Below are positions 1 through 56,221 of a DNA stretch of 64,000 bases, piece after piece. Positions within the stretch are counted from its first letter, which is position 1; every line of letters starts with the position of its first letter. The position numbers and the translations under genes were made by a program. Location: IMG/VR virus record IMGVR_UViG_3300031539_000005, positions 1 through 64,000 of that record. One strand, given 5' to 3'. Origin of the DNA: a virus. The notes under the pieces are model-generated. The model was not told the DNA's origin and made no database searches. It worked only from the letters and a program-made list of their open reading frames with translations.

Positions 1-236
1 CATCTTCTAGAAGTTCTTCTAGTTCATCTTCAAAGAGTAGTTCATCTTCTTCATCATCTTCAAGAAGTAGTTCATCTTCTTCTAGCTCTTCAAGAAGTTC
101 TTCAAGTTCATCTTCTAGAAGTTCTTCTAGTTCATCTTCAAAGAGTAGTTCATCTTCTTCAAGTTCTTCGAAAAGTTCTTCAAGTAGTAGTTCTAGTTTA
201 TCTTCATCTAGTTCTTCTAGAAGTTCTAGTTCTAGT
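1..236 (+). repeat. Ser-coding low-complexity repeat, first block
   Basis: Every complete codon from base 3 reads Ser (TCN and AGY mixed) with sparse Arg/Lys and one Leu. A 51-nt segment at 3-53 recurs exactly at 111-161, a 108-nt period. The block continues beyond the left edge of the window. Confidence 0.85.
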
Positions 237-1448
237 TGGCCTGGATACATGTTCCAGGATATTTATTATTTTGACGCTTATGATATTGGTGGAGAAGAAT
301 GGGAATCTGATCCAGAAGAAATGGTTGATGGAGATGAGGAAACACTTGCTTCTACAGTCACTGATGGGGATGTAGAACTATGTACGTCTAATACTTCGGG
401 CGGAATTGACTTAGGCGAAATATCCAAAGTAGAAATAAGAGCTTATGGTAATTCAAGTTCTGGAAACGCTACATATTTAAGACCAGTGTTTACAGGTGAC
501 GATGGAGATAATCATAATTCAGGACTTGGTGATTCTGGCGAATGGTCAAATTGGTTTGATATTACTTCCGACACTAACGCACCAGTTCCTTGGACTTGGA
601 CAGATTTAGATAATTTAGACTTGGATGTAGAGTTTAGTAAGAGCACAATCGGTGGCTCTAGTATAGGCATAATACAAATCAGGGTTACTTATTACTCAGA
701 TAGTAGCAGTAGTTCTTCTTCATCAAAATCATCAAGTTCATCAAGTTCTTCTAAAAGTTCAAGTTCCTCTAGTTCTTCAAGAAGTAGTTCTAGTTCATCT
801 TCTTCTCTATCCTCTAGTAGTAGTTCTTCTAGGAGTTCTTCAAGTTCATCTTCTTCAAGTTCTTCTAGCAGTTCTTCTTCTAGAAGTAGTTCATCTTCTT
901 CATCTTCATCAAGTTCGTCAAGAAGTAGTTCATCTTCTTCAAGTAGTTCATCGAGCAGTCGTTCTTCCAGTAGTTCTTCTTCTAGAAGTAGTTCATTTTC
1001 TTCAAGTTCTTCTAGCAGTTCTTCTTCTAGAAGTAGTTCATCTTCTTCTTCAAGAAGCAGTTCATCTTCTTCTAGCTCTTCAAGAAGCAGTTCATCTTCT
1101 TCTAGCTCTTCAAGAAGCAGTTCTTCCAGTAGTTCTTCTTCCAGAAGTAGTTCATCTTCTTCAAGTTCATTAAGTTCATCGAGTAGTTTTTCTTCTAAAA
1201 GCAGTTCTAGTTCTTCTTCATCTTCTAAAAGTTCTTCAAGTTCATCTTCTTCAAGTTCTTCTAGCAGTTCTTCTAAGAGTAGTTCAAGCAGCAGTTCTTC
1301 TAAGAGTAGTTCAAGCAGCAGTTCTTCTAAGAGCAGTTCATCTTCATCAACAAGCTTAGGAGCTCCTCATTTGATTTTAAAGGTTTCTAAGGGCAATGTG
1401 GAGTTTAAAGTACGAAAACAAACTGTGACAATAAAAGCAGAAAAGTAG
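1..1448 (+). CDS. Serine-repeat structural protein, 5' end outside window
   Basis: The frame is open from the first complete codon (base 3), so the ATG at 249 is internal and the gene is 5'-truncated by the window edge. What is visible is a Ser tract (to about base 236), a globular domain of roughly 150 residues (bases 237-702) rich in Asp, Gly and aromatic residues as in beta-sandwich carbohydrate-binding or fibre domains, a second Ser tract of about 215 residues (703-1352), and a short hydrophobic/basic beta-like tail (codons 369-399 counted from the ATG at 249). The Ser tracts carry a single Arg or Lys about every 7-10 residues. A second gene of the same design lies at 27081 in the tail region, so a fibre, whisker or head-surface role is inferred. 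The product is a plausible O-glycosylation substrate for the glycosyltransferases encoded just downstream. No named family is recognised. Confidence 0.8.
   Translation, partial: SSRSSSSSSSKSSSSSSSSSRSSSSSSSSSRSSSSSSSRSSSSSSSKSSSSSSSSSKSSSSSSSSLSSSSSSRSSSSSWPGYMFQDIYYFDAYDIGGEEWESDPEEMVDGDEETLASTVTDGDVELCTSNTSGGIDLGEISKVEIRAYGNSSSGNATYLRPVFTGDDGDNHNSGLGDSGEWSNWFDITSDTNAPVPWTWTDLDNLDLDVEFSKSTIGGSSIGIIQIRVTYYSDSSSSSSSSKSSSSSSSSKSSSSSSSSRSSSSSSSSLSSSSSSSRSSSSSSSSSSSSSSSSRSSSSSSSSSSSSRSSSSSSSSSSSSRSSSSSSSRSSSFSSSSSSSSSSRSSSSSSSRSSSSSSSSSRSSSSSSSSSRSSSSSSSSSRSSSSSSSSLSSSSSFSSKSSSSSSSSSKSSSSSSSSSSSSSSSKSSSSSSSSKSSSSSSSSKSSSSSSTSLGAPHLILKVSKGNVEFKVRKQTVTIKAEK
703..1352 (+). repeat. Ser-coding low-complexity repeat, second block
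   Basis: Codes for about 215 residues that are nearly all Ser with single Arg/Lys and a few Leu/Phe. Exact short tandem copies are visible: a 30-nt unit at 1051-1080 repeated at 1081-1110, and a 27-nt unit repeated about three times from 1263 to 1343. These indicate expansion by slippage or recombination while the frame is kept. Confidence 0.85.
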
Positions 1449-1531: not shown

Positions 1532-4500
1532 ATGTCAAGTTCGATAAAGAAATTCATGCTGGAAAGAGCAAAAGATTTAAGCAATGTAGAAGAAATTAGA
1601 GGGAAAGTTCCAGACGAATGTGTGATTAGTATTAAATATAAAGACGGAAGTTTTCATCATCTTCTCCCTTATTCTCTTGACCCTGCCGAATTCGTTGAAG
1701 ATTTAGTTCTAACTGAAGATATTCCCTTAGATCTTTTAGACAAAAAAGAAAAGACAGAAACTCTTCGAGAACAAAAGCCACTCATTCTGAAAAACAGACA
1801 AGCTTTTGGAGATATCTTAATGTTTACCTGTATGCATTATGCATCTCCAATTTTTCTTTCTAATGGAGATAAAAAGTTAATTGGGACAATAGTCAATGCT
1901 AAAGAAGAATTAAGTGTTAAATCTTTCAATTTTGAAACAAAGAAAATTGAAGACAAAAAAATAACGGGTTGGATTAAAAATAATCACAAGAGTAAAGAGT
2001 GGTATTATCTTTCTTTTGAAGGAGCAGCTCTTGTAAATAATGGCCCAGAAGTTCTTGCTGGAGTTTTTCTAACAGGAGATCATGAAGTATTTACCAAAAG
2101 AGGAAAAGTTAGAGTTGATTCATTAGATTTTGCAGAAAAAATTCTCGTGGATGAAAGAATTCCAAACAAAAGGCAAAAAGAGGTCTTTTTTGGTTCTCTA
2201 CTTGGCGATTCATCTCTGGGGAAAACCAATGGTAGCTTCACTCAGACAAGGGGAATATTTAGCTTTGGTCATTGTAAAGCCCAAGAAGAGTGGGCATTGT
2301 TAAAAGCAAAATGTTTTGAAGATTTTAGATTCGATTTTTCTGAAAGAGAATCTAATGGGAACAGACAAAATAGAGTTGGTGGATATACTCATTCTAATCC
2401 ATTCTTCGGAATTCAGAGAAGATTATGGTATAGAGAAATCAATGGAATAGAAAAAAAAATAGTTCCCGATTTTTTATCTAAGGAAAATTTTTCAACATTA
2501 GCTCTTGTCACTTGGTATCTTGATGATGGCACATTTCAGAAATCAAGGGAGTCAGGAGCCACATTTTGCAGCGAAAGCTTTACGGAAGAAGAAAATGAAA
2601 AACTTGCAAAAATTATAATGGAAAGATTTAATATCAAAGCCAGAGTTATTTCTGGCGATAAGAATGAAAAAACTTACTATAGAATCTATATTGGAAATGG
2701 ACACGATAAATCAGGAGATTCTGATGAATTCTTTAAACTTATAGCTCCTTATGTTCCATTATCTATGAGATTCAAGATACCAAATAAGTTTAAAGATATA
2801 CCTTTTAATGCAAGCCTTTGGGATCTTGGAGATTCATTGCCCTATTATGCCGAGTCAATAGTTGAGAAAAAAAGTCCATCTTCAAACTATCAACTTGATA
2901 AATCATATTGTATTAGTGTTGAGGATAATGAAAATTTCATAGTGAACAAAATGGTTGTTTCTAACTGCGCGGTTAGGGATATGAAAAGAGTTTTCCCAAA
3001 GTGGCCGATCAATGTTGCTTCTACGGCAATGCATATCTGGGATAATAATCCTTATTTGGATAGGAGTTTAACTCCTGAAAATGCAGAAGTCCTAGAAATT
3101 GGCCCTAGCTATTTGACTAATGCTAGTAATCGCGATGATAGACATTTTGCTAACGCTTTTAGAATAAGCATTGAACAAAAACTCGGGATTCAAATTCCAC
3201 AAGGGCTAATCAAACCAGATATTTGGATGACACAGGAAGAGATTGATACTCCTCCTATTGTCAATCCTCCTTATTGGATTATTCTTGCTGGCGAAAAAGG
3301 AGATTGGACAGCTAAAACTTATCCCTTCAACAGATGGCAGGAATTTGTTGAAAAGTTTGAGAATATGACTTTTGTCCAAATTGGAGGATCAGAGCATAAA
3401 CATCCTCTCCTGAAAGGCCCTAATATAATTAATTTCATCGGAAAAACTCAGGATAGAAATACTGGAATAAGAGATTTGTTTAAGCTTTTTTATCGCGCAG
3501 AGGGATCGATAGGGCTTGTGAGTTTCCAGATGCATCTTGCTGCTGCTTTTGGAATGCCTTGCATTGTTATTGCTGGAGCTAGGGAACCTGCAAGATTCAC
3601 CAGATATCCTGGTCATCAATATCTCTGTACGGATGGATGTCTTCCATGCGCAGAGGAGAAAGCTTGTTGGCACTGTAATTTAGAGAAAACATGTCCAAAT
3701 ATTGAAGAAGGAACGGATGGGCGAAAATATCCTAAGTGTGTGGAAATTATTCATACAGAAGATCTAGAACGCGCTTTTATCCAATTTTATGATGGAGGTA
3801 GATTAAGTTGGGAAAAAACAAGGAAGCTTACTTTACCTAATCCTCCTGTAATGGAAACTATCATCCATGCAATTGCTAAACCTGTTTCTTCTGAAAAAGA
3901 GGAAGGAGTAGCCGTTGACTTTTCTCCAGAAAAATATGGATTTGCCTGGGGAGGATCTTCAATTACTAAAGCTGATTGGATTTTTATAAAACCTATTCTT
4001 GAAAAATATGAAGTAGAAACCATTCTTGAATTTGGAGCTGGTTTATCTACTTTATTATTTGCAAGTCTTGGAATTAGAGTTATTTCTTTTGAATTGGATA
4101 AAGATGCAAAAGGTTCATGGTCAGATATGATATCAAGAAATAATCCGAATATTGATATTAGGATTTGGGATGGGAAAGATCTCCAAGGGCCACTTCCTCA
4201 TTTTGATCTTGTTTTTGTCGATGGTCCATCTGGAAGTCAGAACCGAGAAAGGTCTATTCAGCTTTCTTCTGAAATGGCTGATCTTATAATAGTTCACGAT
4301 GGAGGCAGAAAGCTTGAAAGTAAATGGCAAGCAGAATATATTGCTCCAAAATTTGCTTATACGGAAAATGGCGGAACAAGATCTGCTTTTTGGGCAAAGA
4401 CAAAGCCAGAAGAAGAAGCAGAACCACAAATTGTTTTTTCTCCTGAAAGATTGGTGAAAATGGTTTTTAATGGCAGAGGAGAAGGTGGAGCAGAAAGTTC

Positions 4501-5449
4501 TACAACATGGCTAATGAATAACTTTGTGGCATTAGGATATGATGTGGAATATATCCATACTCATGAAAAGCCATCTGGTACTTTTAGGAAGCAAGGTAAT
4601 CCCAAAATAGTTACAACGAACGATTTGGATGCTCTGACAGGGCCGTGCGAGCTCCTAATTTTATATACTAATGATTGGGTGTGGGATTTTAATAAAGAAC
4701 CTTTAGTGGATAAATTTCAACTAATTCACGCTAAACGTAAAGTTATGATTATCAATTATAGATTGGGAAAGATAGGTAAGATTCCATGGACTCAGGGATG
4801 GGATAAATACTTGTTTCTTAATTCTTCTCTCGAACAAGCTTTTATGGAATCAATTACAGAAGCTGTCGGAAGCAGTTGGAAAGGACTTACGAACTCTCTT
4901 AGTCCCCCTACTCTCTTGAATAGTTTTTTCGGTTCTCAAATTGATTATTCAGGAAGACTTAGACTCATTAGGCATGGCAGTCAGGGAGATTCAAAATATC
5001 CCAAAGATTTTAATCATATAGTAAAAACAATTCTGGAAGAGATTCCAGGTTGCGAAATTCATCTAATGCCTCCTCCTACTTTTCTTGCAGATTTTGGTGA
5101 AAGAGTTAAAAGCTATAAGAGAAATCAACCTCCTGTTTGGGAATTCTTGGAGAAGGGAAACTGTTTTTGGTATGCCTTGCCTCCAGGATATACAGACATG
5201 GGGCCAAAAGTTATCATGGAAGCTCAGGCTGCTGGCTTGCCAATAATTGCAGATAATCATAGTGGTCCAAAAGACAGAGTTGTGAGCAAAACTGGAATTC
5301 TGTGTGAAGATTTGGACGATTATATAGATGCTATGAAACTTTTCGATAATGAAAATATAAGAAAGGAAACAGGAATTAGGGCCAGAGATCATGCAATGAA
5401 AGAATATGATCCGGAAAGATGGATTAAAGAAATTATAGGAAATGAATAA
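1532..5449 (+). CDS. GT9 - methyltransferase-like - GT4 fusion protein, intein-containing precursor
   Basis: A 1305-residue precursor; removing the intein (100-478) leaves 926 residues. The first domain (about 80-99 plus 479-755) is GT9/heptosyltransferase-like: a GDILMFT loop, a late SFQMHLAAAFGMP segment matching the GT9 nucleotide-sugar site, and a Cys-rich C-terminal stretch. The second (about 785-930) is a class I SAM methyltransferase-like fold, with EFGAGLS at 833-839 and a VDGPSG strand near D897. The third (about 970-1305) is a GT4-type glycosyltransferase, with GRGEGGAES near 981-989 and the MEAQAAGLP donor motif at E1230. A Shine-Dalgarno AAAGGAGAG precedes the ATG, and the stop overlaps the next ATG by one base. 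Transfer and modification of sugars is supported by domain type only; donor and acceptor are unknown. It lies directly after the Ser-repeat gene, so that protein is a candidate acceptor. Confidence 0.85.
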   Translation: MSSSIKKFMLERAKDLSNVEEIRGKVPDECVISIKYKDGSFHHLLPYSLDPAEFVEDLVLTEDIPLDLLDKKEKTETLREQKPLILKNRQAFGDILMFTCMHYASPIFLSNGDKKLIGTIVNAKEELSVKSFNFETKKIEDKKITGWIKNNHKSKEWYYLSFEGAALVNNGPEVLAGVFLTGDHEVFTKRGKVRVDSLDFAEKILVDERIPNKRQKEVFFGSLLGDSSLGKTNGSFTQTRGIFSFGHCKAQEEWALLKAKCFEDFRFDFSERESNGNRQNRVGGYTHSNPFFGIQRRLWYREINGIEKKIVPDFLSKENFSTLALVTWYLDDGTFQKSRESGATFCSESFTEEENEKLAKIIMERFNIKARVISGDKNEKTYYRIYIGNGHDKSGDSDEFFKLIAPYVPLSMRFKIPNKFKDIPFNASLWDLGDSLPYYAESIVEKKSPSSNYQLDKSYCISVEDNENFIVNKMVVSNCAVRDMKRVFPKWPINVASTAMHIWDNNPYLDRSLTPENAEVLEIGPSYLTNASNRDDRHFANAFRISIEQKLGIQIPQGLIKPDIWMTQEEIDTPPIVNPPYWIILAGEKGDWTAKTYPFNRWQEFVEKFENMTFVQIGGSEHKHPLLKGPNIINFIGKTQDRNTGIRDLFKLFYRAEGSIGLVSFQMHLAAAFGMPCIVIAGAREPARFTRYPGHQYLCTDGCLPCAEEKACWHCNLEKTCPNIEEGTDGRKYPKCVEIIHTEDLERAFIQFYDGGRLSWEKTRKLTLPNPPVMETIIHAIAKPVSSEKEEGVAVDFSPEKYGFAWGGSSITKADWIFIKPILEKYEVETILEFGAGLSTLLFASLGIRVISFELDKDAKGSWSDMISRNNPNIDIRIWDGKDLQGPLPHFDLVFVDGPSGSQNRERSIQLSSEMADLIIVHDGGRKLESKWQAEYIAPKFAYTENGGTRSAFWAKTKPEEEAEPQIVFSPERLVKMVFNGRGEGGAESSTTWLMNNFVALGYDVEYIHTHEKPSGTFRKQGNPKIVTTNDLDALTGPCELLILYTNDWVWDFNKEPLVDKFQLIHAKRKVMIINYRLGKIGKIPWTQGWDKYLFLNSSLEQAFMESITEAVGSSWKGLTNSLSPPTLLNSFFGSQIDYSGRLRLIRHGSQGDSKYPKDFNHIVKTILEEIPGCEIHLMPPPTFLADFGERVKSYKRNQPPVWEFLEKGNCFWYALPPGYTDMGPKVIMEAQAAGLPIIADNHSGPKDRVVSKTGILCEDLDDYIDAMKLFDNENIRKETGIRARDHAMKEYDPERWIKEIIGNE
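1829..2965 (+). mobile_element. Intein with LAGLIDADG homing endonuclease domain
   Basis: Precursor residues 100-478 (379 aa). It begins with Cys100 and ends with Asn478 followed by Cys479 of the C-extein. Block B is seen as TGDHEVF (H184). Two dodecapeptide motifs typical of DOD homing endonucleases are present: LLGDSSLG (223-230) and WYLDDGTF (328-335). The C-terminal splicing block reads VVSN/C, so the usual penultimate His is replaced by Ser. Removing it joins GDILMFT to CAVRDMKRVFP, which aligns with the uninterrupted GT9 genes at 38207 (GDILFMTTGIKELKRRYP) and 55010 (GDVMFMLPLIRFLKK). Splicing activity is inferred; some inteins with a substituted penultimate His are active. Confidence 0.9.
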
Positions 5450-6474: not shown

Positions 6475-7413
6475 ATGGAAAGAAAAGTAAACTATTACAT
6501 GGATGAAATTGATCAGATTGTATCTGGACAAATTGTTTATCCTATAACTTGTGAAATTGATCCAAGTAATGCTTGCAATCTTCATTGTTCTTTTTGTATG
6601 TATGCGGATTATTTGAAAAATCACCGCGAAAAGATGTCTCTTAGTACCTTTTCCTATTTAATAAGCGATCTCTATAAATTGAAAGTAAGAAGCATTACTT
6701 TCACAGGAGGAGGTGAACCTCTCTTTCATCCTTTAATTAATGAAATGATTGACTTGGCTCATAATTTAGGATTTAAATTAGGATTAGTTACAAATGGGAC
6801 TTTTCTTCACAGACTTATTCATCCAGAATATTTTACTTTCATTCGGATTAGCATTGATTCTTATGACGAATCTTCTTACAGAAAGGTTAAGGGAAAGAAT
6901 TTATTTACAAAAGTTATCAGTAATGTAGAATATCTTATTTCCCTGGGCGTAACAGATGTGGGATTAAGCTATGTAATTTGTGAAGATAATTGTGCTGGTC
7001 TTGAAATAGCACAGAATATCGCTAATAGTCTCGGAGTGTCCTACATTCAGTTTAAGCCAGCTTGGACTAAGAATGGAACCTTTAAAATTGCCGATATAAA
7101 AAATTCTGAAGATAGGGCTATTGTTACTTCTCGTTATCCGGCTACTGATAATTTGCCTTGTCTTATTGCAGGATTGATAGGAATAATTGGTGCAGATGGA
7201 AAAGTTTATTTTTGTTGTCAATTTAGGGGAAATTCTGATTTTGTCTTGGGGGACTTGGCAGAAAACTCTTTTAGTGAGATTTGGCCTAGACGATATAAAA
7301 AAGGATATGATATATCAAAATGTCCTAGATGTAGATATCAAAACTACGCAATAGGATATAGAGAATTTAGTAAGCCTAAATACATTTTTCTTAGACATAT
7401 TGATTTTCTATAG
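6475..7413 (+). CDS. Radical SAM enzyme, SPASM-like C-terminus
   Basis: 312 aa. The 4Fe-4S motif CNLHCSFC (Cys34, Cys38, Cys41) follows CEIDPSNA, and the SAM-binding GGE motif appears as FTGGGEPL. The barrel continues with LVTNGTFL and RISIDSYDESSY. Near the C-terminus are VYFCCQF, GDLAENSFSEIW and CPRCRYQN, the layout of a SPASM/twitch auxiliary cluster region. SPASM enzymes modify peptides or small substrates by radical chemistry; the target cannot be read here. It is coupled (3-nt gap) to the glycosyltransferase before it and lies in the same run as the Ser-repeat gene, so a role in sugar synthesis or structural-protein maturation is possible. Confidence 0.85.
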   Translation: MERKVNYYMDEIDQIVSGQIVYPITCEIDPSNACNLHCSFCMYADYLKNHREKMSLSTFSYLISDLYKLKVRSITFTGGGEPLFHPLINEMIDLAHNLGFKLGLVTNGTFLHRLIHPEYFTFIRISIDSYDESSYRKVKGKNLFTKVISNVEYLISLGVTDVGLSYVICEDNCAGLEIAQNIANSLGVSYIQFKPAWTKNGTFKIADIKNSEDRAIVTSRYPATDNLPCLIAGLIGIIGADGKVYFCCQFRGNSDFVLGDLAENSFSEIWPRRYKKGYDISKCPRCRYQNYAIGYREFSKPKYIFLRHIDFL

Positions 7414-37868: not shown

Positions 37869-38210
37869 ATGACAGAAAAGTCAGAAGAAATTGTCATAGC
37901 AGAATCAGAAGAAACAAAGCTACTGAATGCTGATATGGCCTCGGTTGTATTTAGTAACTTAAAGCTTTTCATTAATGATTATATGAAAAGGTTTGATCCT
38001 ATCTTTAAGATTGTAGAAGATACAAAGCTAAATTTAGCAACTCTTTCTACTTTACTTTCTGAAAAGAAAGTGTTTAATTTAGAAGAATTTAAAGAATGCT
38101 TTGATAAAATTTACCAGTCTTTTGGGGTAGTTCTAGATGACGGAAGTATGAATGGAACAGTTATCCTTACTAAATATAATTGGGAAAGTGAAAGGAGCAC
38201 AGATAAATGA
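37869..38210 (+). CDS. Small protein paired with GT9 (cassette copy 1)
   Basis: 113 aa, RBS AAAGGAGAAGAGG. Helical middle and a distinctive end (EFKECFDKIYQ, VVLDDGSMNGTVILTKYNW) that parallels the end of the 54668 product (EFFAEFQEYELK, IVDATGNMTGTPIFSLYNF). Both genes lie immediately before a GT9 gene; here the overlap is ATGA-type (4 nt). A partner or regulator of the glycosyltransferase is inferred from this conserved pairing. Confidence 0.6.
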   Translation: MTEKSEEIVIAESEETKLLNADMASVVFSNLKLFINDYMKRFDPIFKIVEDTKLNLATLSTLLSEKKVFNLEEFKECFDKIYQSFGVVLDDGSMNGTVILTKYNWESERSTDK

Positions 38211-39328
38211 GAGTAGTTCAGATGGCAAAGGGCTGTGAAATTAAATCTGGCGACAGAGTAGTCGGGAATTTTGAAGAAGAAAAATTCTATATAATGTCAG
38301 ATGCTTTTCATGAACAGCTTACTATGATAACAGAAAATCTTTTTGGTCTTGAAATTCCCTTTAGGGAAGTTTACAGAGGCTATAATGGAGAGGATCTCAA
38401 CAACAAAAAGGTGATCATGTTAAGACATGGCGGCGGAGGAGATATTCTTTTTATGACTACTGGCATTAAGGAATTAAAGAGAAGATATCCAGAAGCTCAT
38501 TTTTCCATAGCAGTCGGGCAGCAATATTTAGGATTAGTCAAAAATGAACCTGAGATAGAAGCCATCTATGATTTGCCTTTGCTTTTAGATGTGTGGAACA
38601 ATTTTCACTACCATTTAATATTCGAAGGCATTATTGAAAACAATCCCGAGGCATCAAGAGTTAATGCTTATGATCTTTTTATGGACAAAATGCATTTGGA
38701 TTTAACTGGAGTTCCTGCTGAACACAAAATTCCCACCATCCATATAGCTCTCGCTGATCGGACCAAGTTCTTTCCTTCTATGAAAGATTACAATCTAGAA
38801 AGAACTCAGGTTGGAATTCAAGTTGAAGCCAGTAGTCCTATTCGTAATTACCCTCCGGCGAATTATATTGAAATATCCAGAGGACTGATTGAAAGAGGAT
38901 GTGATATATTTTTATTTGGCAGCGGTCAACAAACTTTAATCATTGAATCTTTAGTCAAGAAACTAGGTTCGCCACATGTTTTCCCCAAAATTTGTGAAAG
39001 TATTACTGAAGCTATAGTCGTTGCGAGCTATATGGACTATTTCATTGCTCCAGACTCGCTTTTCATCCATATAGCAGGAGCCTTTCAGATTCCAGTAATT
39101 GGAATTTATGGGCCATTTCATTCTGAATTAAGAATGAAATATTTTAAAAATGCTATAGGAATCGATTTAGAAACTGGATGCTCGCCATGTTTTCAACATG
39201 GTCACAGCCCATGTCTAAGAGGAAGTCCAAGTCCATGTTTTTCTTTAGTTAAACCAGAGATCGTTTTAATGGCATTTGATAAACTCAGAATAGAAGTAAA
39301 AGGAGAGAGGAATGAACAGAAAAGTTAG
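38207..39328 (+). CDS. GT9 family glycosyltransferase (heptosyltransferase-like)
   Basis: 373 aa. MLRHGGGGDILFMTTGIKELKRRYP is the GT9 acceptor-domain loop; VGIQVEASSPIRNYPP starts the donor domain; IFLFGSGQQ and IAPDSLFIHIAGAFQIPVIGIYG are the nucleotide-sugar motifs. The C-terminus has the Cys pattern CSPC...SPC...SPCF often present in this family. It lacks an intein, so it marks the uninterrupted form of the loop invaded at 1829. It resembles the product at 55010 throughout. GT9 enzymes usually add heptose or related sugars to glycolipids; the phage substrate is unknown. Confidence 0.85.
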   Translation: MRVVQMAKGCEIKSGDRVVGNFEEEKFYIMSDAFHEQLTMITENLFGLEIPFREVYRGYNGEDLNNKKVIMLRHGGGGDILFMTTGIKELKRRYPEAHFSIAVGQQYLGLVKNEPEIEAIYDLPLLLDVWNNFHYHLIFEGIIENNPEASRVNAYDLFMDKMHLDLTGVPAEHKIPTIHIALADRTKFFPSMKDYNLERTQVGIQVEASSPIRNYPPANYIEISRGLIERGCDIFLFGSGQQTLIIESLVKKLGSPHVFPKICESITEAIVVASYMDYFIAPDSLFIHIAGAFQIPVIGIYGPFHSELRMKYFKNAIGIDLETGCSPCFQHGHSPCLRGSPSPCFSLVKPEIVLMAFDKLRIEVKGERNEQKS

Positions 39329-55009: not shown

Positions 55010-56221
55010 ATGAGAATAGTTAAAACTCTTATAGAAATGAAGATTTATGACGATTTAATTCTGAGAAGAGACGAAGAATATGTTATGGCGGGAGCAGTTC
55101 TGAAGCAGTTGTCAAAGATTTATCCAGGAGGAATTATAGAAACTGGGAACTTTGATGACCACTATAGACCTATAAATGTCAAAACTCTTGAAAAGAATAA
55201 ACGCTTATTTATTTTTAGGAGCGGAGGAATTGGAGATGTTATGTTCATGTTGCCTCTTATTCGTTTTTTAAAAAAGCAATTTGGAACACGAATTAAGGCG
55301 GGAACTTCTCCTCAGTATAGAGATGTTTTGCAAAACAATCCCTATATTGATGAAATTATCAGTGTTCCTTTTCTGTTAAGGGAAATGGATACTGATTATC
55401 ATTTAATGTTTGAAGGAATTATTGAAGATCCTAGTGAAAAACCTAAGAAATATCATGCAGTGGATTTATTTTTAGAAGAAGCTGGAGTTAATCCAGAGGA
55501 TATTCCTTGGGATGAAAAAATTCCACCTCTTTTTTTGAGTCAAGAAGAAAAAACGTGGAGTAAAAATAGGCTTTCTAAACTTGATATTCCTTTGGGAGCT
55601 AAAATTGGGATTCAAGTACAAGCAAGTTCACCAGTTCGAACTTTCCCTTTGGATAAAACAGTTGGAATTATTAAATTGTTGATTAATCAGGGAAACAATA
55701 TTTTTCTTTTTGGCGGACCAAGGCAAGCTGAATTTACAAATTATTTAACAAGTCTCCTGGGAGAAGCTAGGAGACTCATTAATTTAGTTCATAAGGATAT
55801 TACTCTCCGTCAATCAATAATTTGGGCGAGCATGATGGATTTGATTATTGCTCCAGATTCAGCTTTTATTCATATAGCTGGAAGTTTGGGCGTTCCACTA
55901 ATTGGACTCTATGGGTGTTTTCCTTCTCTATTGCGTATGAAATATTATAGGAATGCAATTGGCATTGATTGTAATGTAGCTTGTGCTCCTTCTTTTATTC
56001 ATGGACATCTGCCTTGCTATAAAGGAGATCCATCTCCTTGCTTTTCTGTAGTGAAAGTCCAGAATGTTCTTGATGCTGTTGAACATATTCTTGGGATTAA
56101 GAAAATTCCCAATGAGTATCCTGCTTATAATGAATTTAGAGATAGCGTTTTATCTCATTCTCCTTTTATTCAAATTTCTGAAGCGCTTAAGGAAACAGCG
56201 GGTCTTAAGGATGGGAATTAA
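55010..56221 (+). CDS. GT9 family glycosyltransferase (cassette copy 2)
   Basis: 403 aa. IFRSGGIGDVMFMLPLIRFLKK is the GT9 loop; IGIQVQASSPVRTFP, NIFLFGGPRQAE and IIAPDSAFIHIAGSLGVPLIGLYG form the donor site; the end has CAPSF...LPCYKGDPSPCF. It is similar to the 38207 product over its whole length but carries a C-terminal extension of about 45 residues. It is transcribed with replication genes, so it is probably made earlier than the other sugar genes. Confidence 0.85.
   Translation: MRIVKTLIEMKIYDDLILRRDEEYVMAGAVLKQLSKIYPGGIIETGNFDDHYRPINVKTLEKNKRLFIFRSGGIGDVMFMLPLIRFLKKQFGTRIKAGTSPQYRDVLQNNPYIDEIISVPFLLREMDTDYHLMFEGIIEDPSEKPKKYHAVDLFLEEAGVNPEDIPWDEKIPPLFLSQEEKTWSKNRLSKLDIPLGAKIGIQVQASSPVRTFPLDKTVGIIKLLINQGNNIFLFGGPRQAEFTNYLTSLLGEARRLINLVHKDITLRQSIIWASMMDLIIAPDSAFIHIAGSLGVPLIGLYGCFPSLLRMKYYRNAIGIDCNVACAPSFIHGHLPCYKGDPSPCFSVVKVQNVLDAVEHILGIKKIPNEYPAYNEFRDSVLSHSPFIQISEALKETAGLKDGN

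Follow-up and report, generated by a model that had tools for sequence, protein, structure and literature searches.

A phage gene for a glycosyltransferase with a GT9-type N-terminal domain is interrupted in frame by an intein carrying the two motifs of a LAGLIDADG homing endonuclease, and we consider it highly probable that this is a mobile, self-splicing class 1 intein that homed into the gene. The intein lies in the first 64,000 nucleotides (hereafter the window) of viral record IMGVR_UViG_3300031539_000005, which comprises 122,493 bases. The precursor ORF (positions 1532-5449, + strand) encodes 1305 residues in one uninterrupted frame with no stop, and subtraction of the intein's 379 residues gives a computed spliced product of 926 residues. 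An earlier reading of the sequence alone (the sequence-only reading) had placed the intein at 1829-2965 and numbered its key residues Cys100, Ser477 and Asn478 in the precursor (Cys1, Ser378 and Asn379 of the intein): both coordinates and numbering are correct, and Cys479 as the +1 residue and the length of the spliced product also agree.

Table 1. Positions of the intein, its motifs, the host gene and related features (window coordinates unless a locus is named).
Feature	Position	Strand	Remarks
Intein with LAGLIDADG homing endonuclease	1829..2965	+	379 aa, codons 100-478; Pfam/NCBIfam profiles, relatives, predicted fold
N-extein	1532..1828	+	99 aa, ending ...NRQAFGDILMFT; alignable to the N-terminal part of intein-free relatives
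C-extein	2966..5446	+	827 aa; remainder of the GT9-fold domain plus further domains
Cys1, first splicing nucleophile (block A)	1829..1831	+	invariant in alignment A5 (35 rows)
Block B, T-G-D-H	2072..2083	+	Thr82 and His85 both invariant in A5
LAGLIDADG motif 1, FGSLLGDSSLG	2189..2221	+	Gly126, Asp127 invariant in A5; Pfam PF03161
LAGLIDADG motif 2, LVTWYLDDGTF	2504..2536	+	Asp232, Asp233, Gly234 invariant in A5
Block F, YCISVEDNENF	2906..2938	+	F:4 is Cys361; F:13 is Glu368, not His
Block G, VVSN/C	2954..2968	+	penultimate Ser378, terminal Asn379, +1 Cys (codon 2966-2968, C-extein)
Asp94 codon, conserved GD motif	1811..1813	+	Asp invariant in 29/29 aligned relatives
Cys-rich stretch	3647..3739	+	four Cys invariant in 29/29 relatives and in alignment A2 (includes the window)
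Poly-serine ORF	3..1448	+	282/481 residues Ser; cut by contig start; directly upstream of the glycosyltransferase
Intact GT9 paralogue 1	38207..39328	+	GGGGDILFMTTGIKELKRR; 69.7 bits
Intact GT9 paralogue 2	55010..56221	+	SGGIGDVMFMLPLIRFLKKQ; 53.1 bits
DegT-type aminotransferase intein	L236:1060-3273	-	
DegT-type aminotransferase intein	L237:1057-3288	-	
DegT-type aminotransferase intein	L024:2743-4983		

Intein anatomy and empty sites

The endonuclease portion of the intein is matched by Pfam LAGLIDADG_2 (PF03161) with an E-value of 6.1e-24 and 85.3 bits (cut-off 25), whilst Intein_splicing reached 36.4 bits (cut-off 35.8) with the intein submitted alone and remained below its cut-off with the whole precursor (31.6 bits) and in a six-frame search (18 bits). 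NCBIfam intein_Cterm was above its cut-off (18.1 bits; 15.6) and intein_Nterm under it (17.9 bits; 24.5). Profile and six-frame searches of the phage record gave a single match each: a second intein of the same family elsewhere in the phage was therefore dropped as a candidate. Viral contigs searched with the intein as a single sequence yielded no relative. The predicted structure of the intein (pLDDT 92.5) superposes on HINT splicing domains with Z-scores of about 20 over some 136 residues, including the Ssp DnaB intein (1mi8; Z 20.6, rmsd 1.8 over 136 residues), and on I-SceI (Z 22.1, rmsd 2.3 over 193 residues).

Cys1, Cys+1, Thr82 and His85 of block B and the terminal Asn379, which is invariant across 35 aligned inteins (A5), together place the intein in class 1; the presence of Cys1 rules out class 3. 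Two histidines that are usual but not obligatory in class 1, at positions G:6 and F:13, are here Ser378 and Glu368. Membership of the LAGLIDADG_2 homing endonucleases is given by the profile score and by the motif acids Asp127 and Asp232/233, and because the motif residues are invariant in the 35 inteins and the model superposes on I-SceI, the endonuclease is likely to be active. Thus an intein with two LAGLIDADG motifs, as the sequence-only reading had it, is backed by profiles, predicted fold, annotated relatives and, as described below, 45 of 45 empty sites, and an ordinary GT9 insertion devoid of intein blocks is ruled out by the intein profiles, the HINT fold and the empty sites.

Related genes were retrieved with patterns taken from the C-extein sequence, and there was therefore no selection against occupied copies. 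None of the viral contigs in a first set retrieved with the C-extein carried an insert (13/13), and a second set of 45 contigs from an alignment-based search, which includes all 13 of the first, gave the same picture: in each of these 45 other contigs with the host gene the site is empty, the junction lying at an identical codon position (typically IGDILMFT^CAVRDF). The search for this insertion point in related genes, as the sequence-only reading had proposed, hence identified the window as the sole occupied copy among the contigs found. Counted by eye, the 45 empty sites have 34 Cys, 9 Ala and 2 Ser at +1 (Cys 24, Ala 3 and Ser 2 in a script count over 29 relatives), and the Cys acting as second nucleophile therefore belongs to the old gene. 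A tblastn search with the C-extein against 50,697 phage records gave no match.

The host glycosyltransferase and its poly-serine neighbour

Sequence profiles identify the host family only faintly: on the C-extein, Pfam Glyco_transf_9 scored 16.7 bits (cut-off 22) and Glyco_trans_1_4 24.3 bits, also below its cut-off, and amongst 29 relatives Glyco_transf_9 matched 7 at an E-value of 0.01 and the NCBIfam heptosyltransferase III model 25 at 0.1 or better. A profile of the glycosyltransferase domain compared by sequence with solved chains found no match. We modelled the intein-free relative L104 (pLDDT 80.5), and this model superposes on the GT9 structure 3tov with a Z-score of 22.7 (rmsd 3.0 over 267 residues), followed by TibC (Z 20.8), WaaC (Z about 19), NDH-PSI subunits (Z 16) and remaining GT-B enzymes and epimerases (Z about 11 or lower; the first GT-B enzyme of a type other than heptosyltransferase at 11.1). 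The two intact GT9 paralogues that the sequence-only reading had noticed are indeed present in the window (Table 1). Taken from modelled fold, paralogues and weak profile matches, the N-terminal domain of the host is assigned a divergent GT9 fold; downstream of it, the C-extein comprises a stretch recognised by eye as methyltransferase-like and, at its C-terminus, a glycosyltransferase group 1 domain (sub-cut-off in Pfam).

TibC and the bacterial autotransporter heptosyltransferases share with the phage domain a GT9-type GT-B fold, four conserved cysteines and a conserved Asp, whereas the phage enzyme carries extra C-terminal domains. The report on TibC describes Asp-110 as catalytic base, an iron finger of four cysteines (Cys-339, 342, 358 and 370) and serines of autotransporters as substrates (PMC4358343). 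Judged by its position, Asp94 is the probable counterpart of Asp-110, and the Cys-rich stretch of the host is comparable to the iron finger described there, although the spacing of the cysteines differs. An equivalog of TibC was ruled out, as TIGR04414 scored 15.4 bits on L104 against a cut-off of 200. In the L104 model the insertion junction corresponds to the bond linking residues 70 and 71, within a helix spanning residues 63-79 and five residues past the invariant Asp65. The earlier placement of the intein in the GD loop thus holds in so far as the junction is close to this conserved loop, but the junction itself lies in the following helix. Given this distance from the conserved Asp, the intein divides the active site, and with the insertion right after this residue the precursor is probably inactive until splicing.

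Directly upstream of the host gene lies an ORF in which more than half of the residues are serine (Table 1). Poly-serine, defined here as an ORF stretch in which serine accounts for 50% or more of 60 residues, occurs on the same strand close to the glycosyltransferase gene at 21 of the 45 loci, with runs such as SSSSSSSSRSSSSSSSSS (besides the window: L111, L112, L115, L117, L119-L124, L126, L128, L135, L137, L140-L143, L145, L146 and L148). Control loci showed such stretches in 2/80 viral cases, both on the opposite strand (53% and 63%), and in 3/80 bacterial cases (53-58%). This linkage suggests, as the simplest reading, that the host gene encodes a protein O-glycosyltransferase acting on a poly-serine virion protein, with the product of the upstream ORF as candidate acceptor. 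No report of such a glycosyltransferase/poly-serine pair was found in literature titles and the opening parts of abstracts. Directly 3' of the glycosyltransferase cassette, the window encodes a radical SAM protein (6475-7413).

A splicing centre lacking both usual histidines

The replacement of the penultimate His by Ser (VVSN/C) had already been pointed out from the sequence; to this can be added that the His of block F (F:13, defined as the residue preceding N-F/Y) is replaced as well, by Glu. In a comparison of 131 inteins, with the window counted and the others drawn from the best 80 of 270 viral and the best 80 of 389 genome relatives, 104 have His at both positions, 22 are without one and 5 without both; as these are best-scoring subsets, the frequencies differ in scope from those over all inteins. 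Of the 80 viral loci, 55 were used, since the other 25 matches stopped short of the intein C-terminus, and four partial rows (L044, L045, L054 and L056) were left out of the 55 before counting; from the genome loci L203 was omitted, its match being short of the C-terminus. None of 79 bacterial inteins (from the best 80 of the 389) is without both histidines. The five inteins with double loss represent 3 of 43 clusters at 60% identity (the window; L030; L086/L088/L089), and all five have Cys at F:4 and at +1. The window, L030 and L086 stand apart in the tree, and the losses of both histidines therefore look independent.

According to a review, neither His is needed in every intein, and G:6 is a residue other than His in about 5% of functional inteins (PMC4031507), whilst a mycobacteriophage study describes that the block F His can assume the role of the penultimate His (PMC5050341). 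The window intein resembles the class 1 inteins without penultimate His of these reports in that G:6 is not His, but differs from them in that the stand-in His of block F is missing too (PMC5050341). Because both usual histidines are absent, another residue, perhaps Glu368 or Cys361, must aid Asn cyclisation, or else this step is slow; C-terminal cleavage may thus be slow or impaired in this intein.

In the pathway that we propose, Cys1 would attack the Thr99-Cys100 bond, the acyl group would be transferred to Cys479 of the extein, Asn478 would cyclise and the exteins would ligate to the 926-residue enzyme. Prior to splicing, the intein would part Asp94, the probable catalytic base, from the remaining active site and so leave the precursor inactive; we propose that selection on the enzyme therefore maintains splicing, and the endonuclease domain would cleave intein-free alleles and in this manner spread the element. 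Counted against this explanation are the two missing histidines, the sub-cut-off scores of the whole precursor for the intein profile and of GT9 in Pfam, and the single occupied copy.

The missing histidines could also be read as signs of decay: their loss would have impaired splicing, and the phage would get by with an inactive or cleaved glycosyltransferase thanks to its paralogues or to other domains. The rarity of the double loss in the best-scoring subsets (5/131 inteins, 3/43 clusters) and the two GT9 paralogues elsewhere in the genome speak for such decay, yet the other residues for splicing and DNA cleavage are all preserved in an uninterrupted frame, the two other double-loss lineages reside in open-frame ORFs that encode UDG-type or polymerase domains, and according to the review neither histidine is indispensable throughout the inteins (PMC4031507): we thus regard decay as unlikely. 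The histidine-poor C-terminal centre might instead render splicing slow or conditional and so turn it into a post-translational switch, which would hold the enzyme back until a late stage of infection or until the cysteines (Cys1, Cys361 and Cys+1) respond to a redox or pH cue. Such a switch would fit an active site split by the insertion and the report that the penultimate residue affected precursor accumulation in a mycobacteriophage intein (PMC5050341), but with 45 of 45 related genes free of intein there is no general need for regulation by an intein, and we give this proposal a small chance. Little weight attaches to a composite version, in which Glu368, Ser378 and Cys361 would form a His-free centre, a slow or cue-dependent step would time the activation of a phage O-glycosyltransferase acting on a poly-serine virion protein, and glycan cassettes would constitute a recurrent niche.

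A chimera, in which metagenome assembly joined the intein to the host gene, is very improbable: the allele is present on one contig and the viral contig searches found no independent copy, but both junctions are in frame and codon-exact with the correct splicing nucleophiles, the GC content of the intein (32%) is close to that of the N-extein (34%), and direct repeats are absent at the junctions. The mobile class 1 intein in a glycosyltransferase gene hence remains the explanation that we favour.

Related inteins and phage glycan genes as hosts

Annotated inteins in the DNA polymerases of T5-like phages align with the window intein over its full length (28-29% identity). These inteins, for example that of Escherichia phage SelmaRatti (MZ501103), share the alignment over residues 1-379, Cys1, the F:4 Cys, the terminal Asn and the LAGLIDADG domain, and differ in their DNA polymerase host and in having kept both C-terminal histidines (DNHNF, VVHN). 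The nearest relatives among the best 80 of 270 viral matches are found in a DegT/DnrJ/EryC1 sugar aminotransferase (L024, 33% identity), whose neighbours by eye are glycosyltransferase-like and methyltransferase-like ORFs, and in a phage portal protein (L025, 35%). A tree of 38 inteins places the window in a firm clade of 15 rows (100/99) together with L024, L025, L026, both other DegT inteins and others, whilst its closer grouping with L024, L025 and L026 is weak (80/67). The tag 'RNRlike' borne by some inteins of this tree is probably wrong: their CRPPGNR flanks seem to resemble uracil-DNA glycosylase, and neither assignment carries weight here. Among the 55 viral inteins, the Pfam scan of host genes covered 19. 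At L086:1636-6870, a 1745-residue ORF for a phage DNA polymerase holds two or more intein-like inserts, of which one gives a LAGLIDADG match and another an HNH match.

In three phages, related inteins interrupt the gene of a DegT-type sugar aminotransferase; two different positions are occupied, each of which is by eye empty in the other gene. In records G002 and G003 the glycosyltransferase site is empty, yet related inteins (33-34% identity over the aligned part) occupy the DegT gene (Pfam 266 and 260 bits; cut-off 19.8) at MR^CEAD, by our reckoning at most about 2 kb from the glycosyltransferase gene. As in the window, the host is a phage glycan gene, with L024 a nearest relative and L236 and L237 in the same wider clade; host enzyme and insertion sites are different, identity is 29-34%, and these inteins keep the penultimate His, F:13 being Lys in L236 and L237 (by eye). 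The searched part of the window's own record contained no DegT match. The related inteins in DegT genes of three phages indicate, on sequence comparison, that glycan genes of phages have served as intein hosts repeatedly.

The 45 records with extein relatives, of which an earlier intein search had covered 25 and a later one all, were compared with the alignment of the intein family: six match at an E-value of 0.001, G002 and G003 strongly and four weakly. For the four weak records, Pfam identifies the hosts in G017 as a ribonucleotide reductase as well as a radical SAM enzyme and points to a trypsin-like protease in G045 at 23.6 bits, below its cut-off; by eye, the host is a polymerase in G010 and in G006 a DNA methylase. 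The radical SAM intein of G017 (L244:1-2034, - strand) splits the N-terminal cysteine cluster (CTYC / CFEKN, by eye; Radical_SAM 35.9 bits, LAGLIDADG_3 38.8 bits, Intein_splicing 34.1 bits and just under its cut-off). That of G045 (L241:1213-2664, - strand) is short, has no endonuclease match and lies beside the GNSGG motif of the protease (Intein_splicing 42.1 bits).

The sequence-only reading had called a glycosyltransferase host rare, since inteins sit mostly in nucleic-acid enzymes. Rarity is plausible: no intein in a glycosyltransferase was found in literature titles and the opening parts of abstracts, nor in the portions of PMC7468147 and PMC3706429 consulted, which leaves absence unproven. 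The general statement needs the rider that the hosts of the nearest relatives are a sugar aminotransferase and a phage portal protein. The window intein is a new allele of a known kind of intein in an unusual host protein and at an unusual site, and it adds a sugar-transferring enzyme to the known intein hosts. Where the absence of both histidines is concerned, the catalyst of Asn cyclisation becomes testable in three separate natural lineages. Together with the aminotransferase cases, phage glycan genes have been invaded more than once, and we argue that what an intein needs is therefore a useful gene with a conserved site in its coding sequence, and not a host with a nucleic-acid function.
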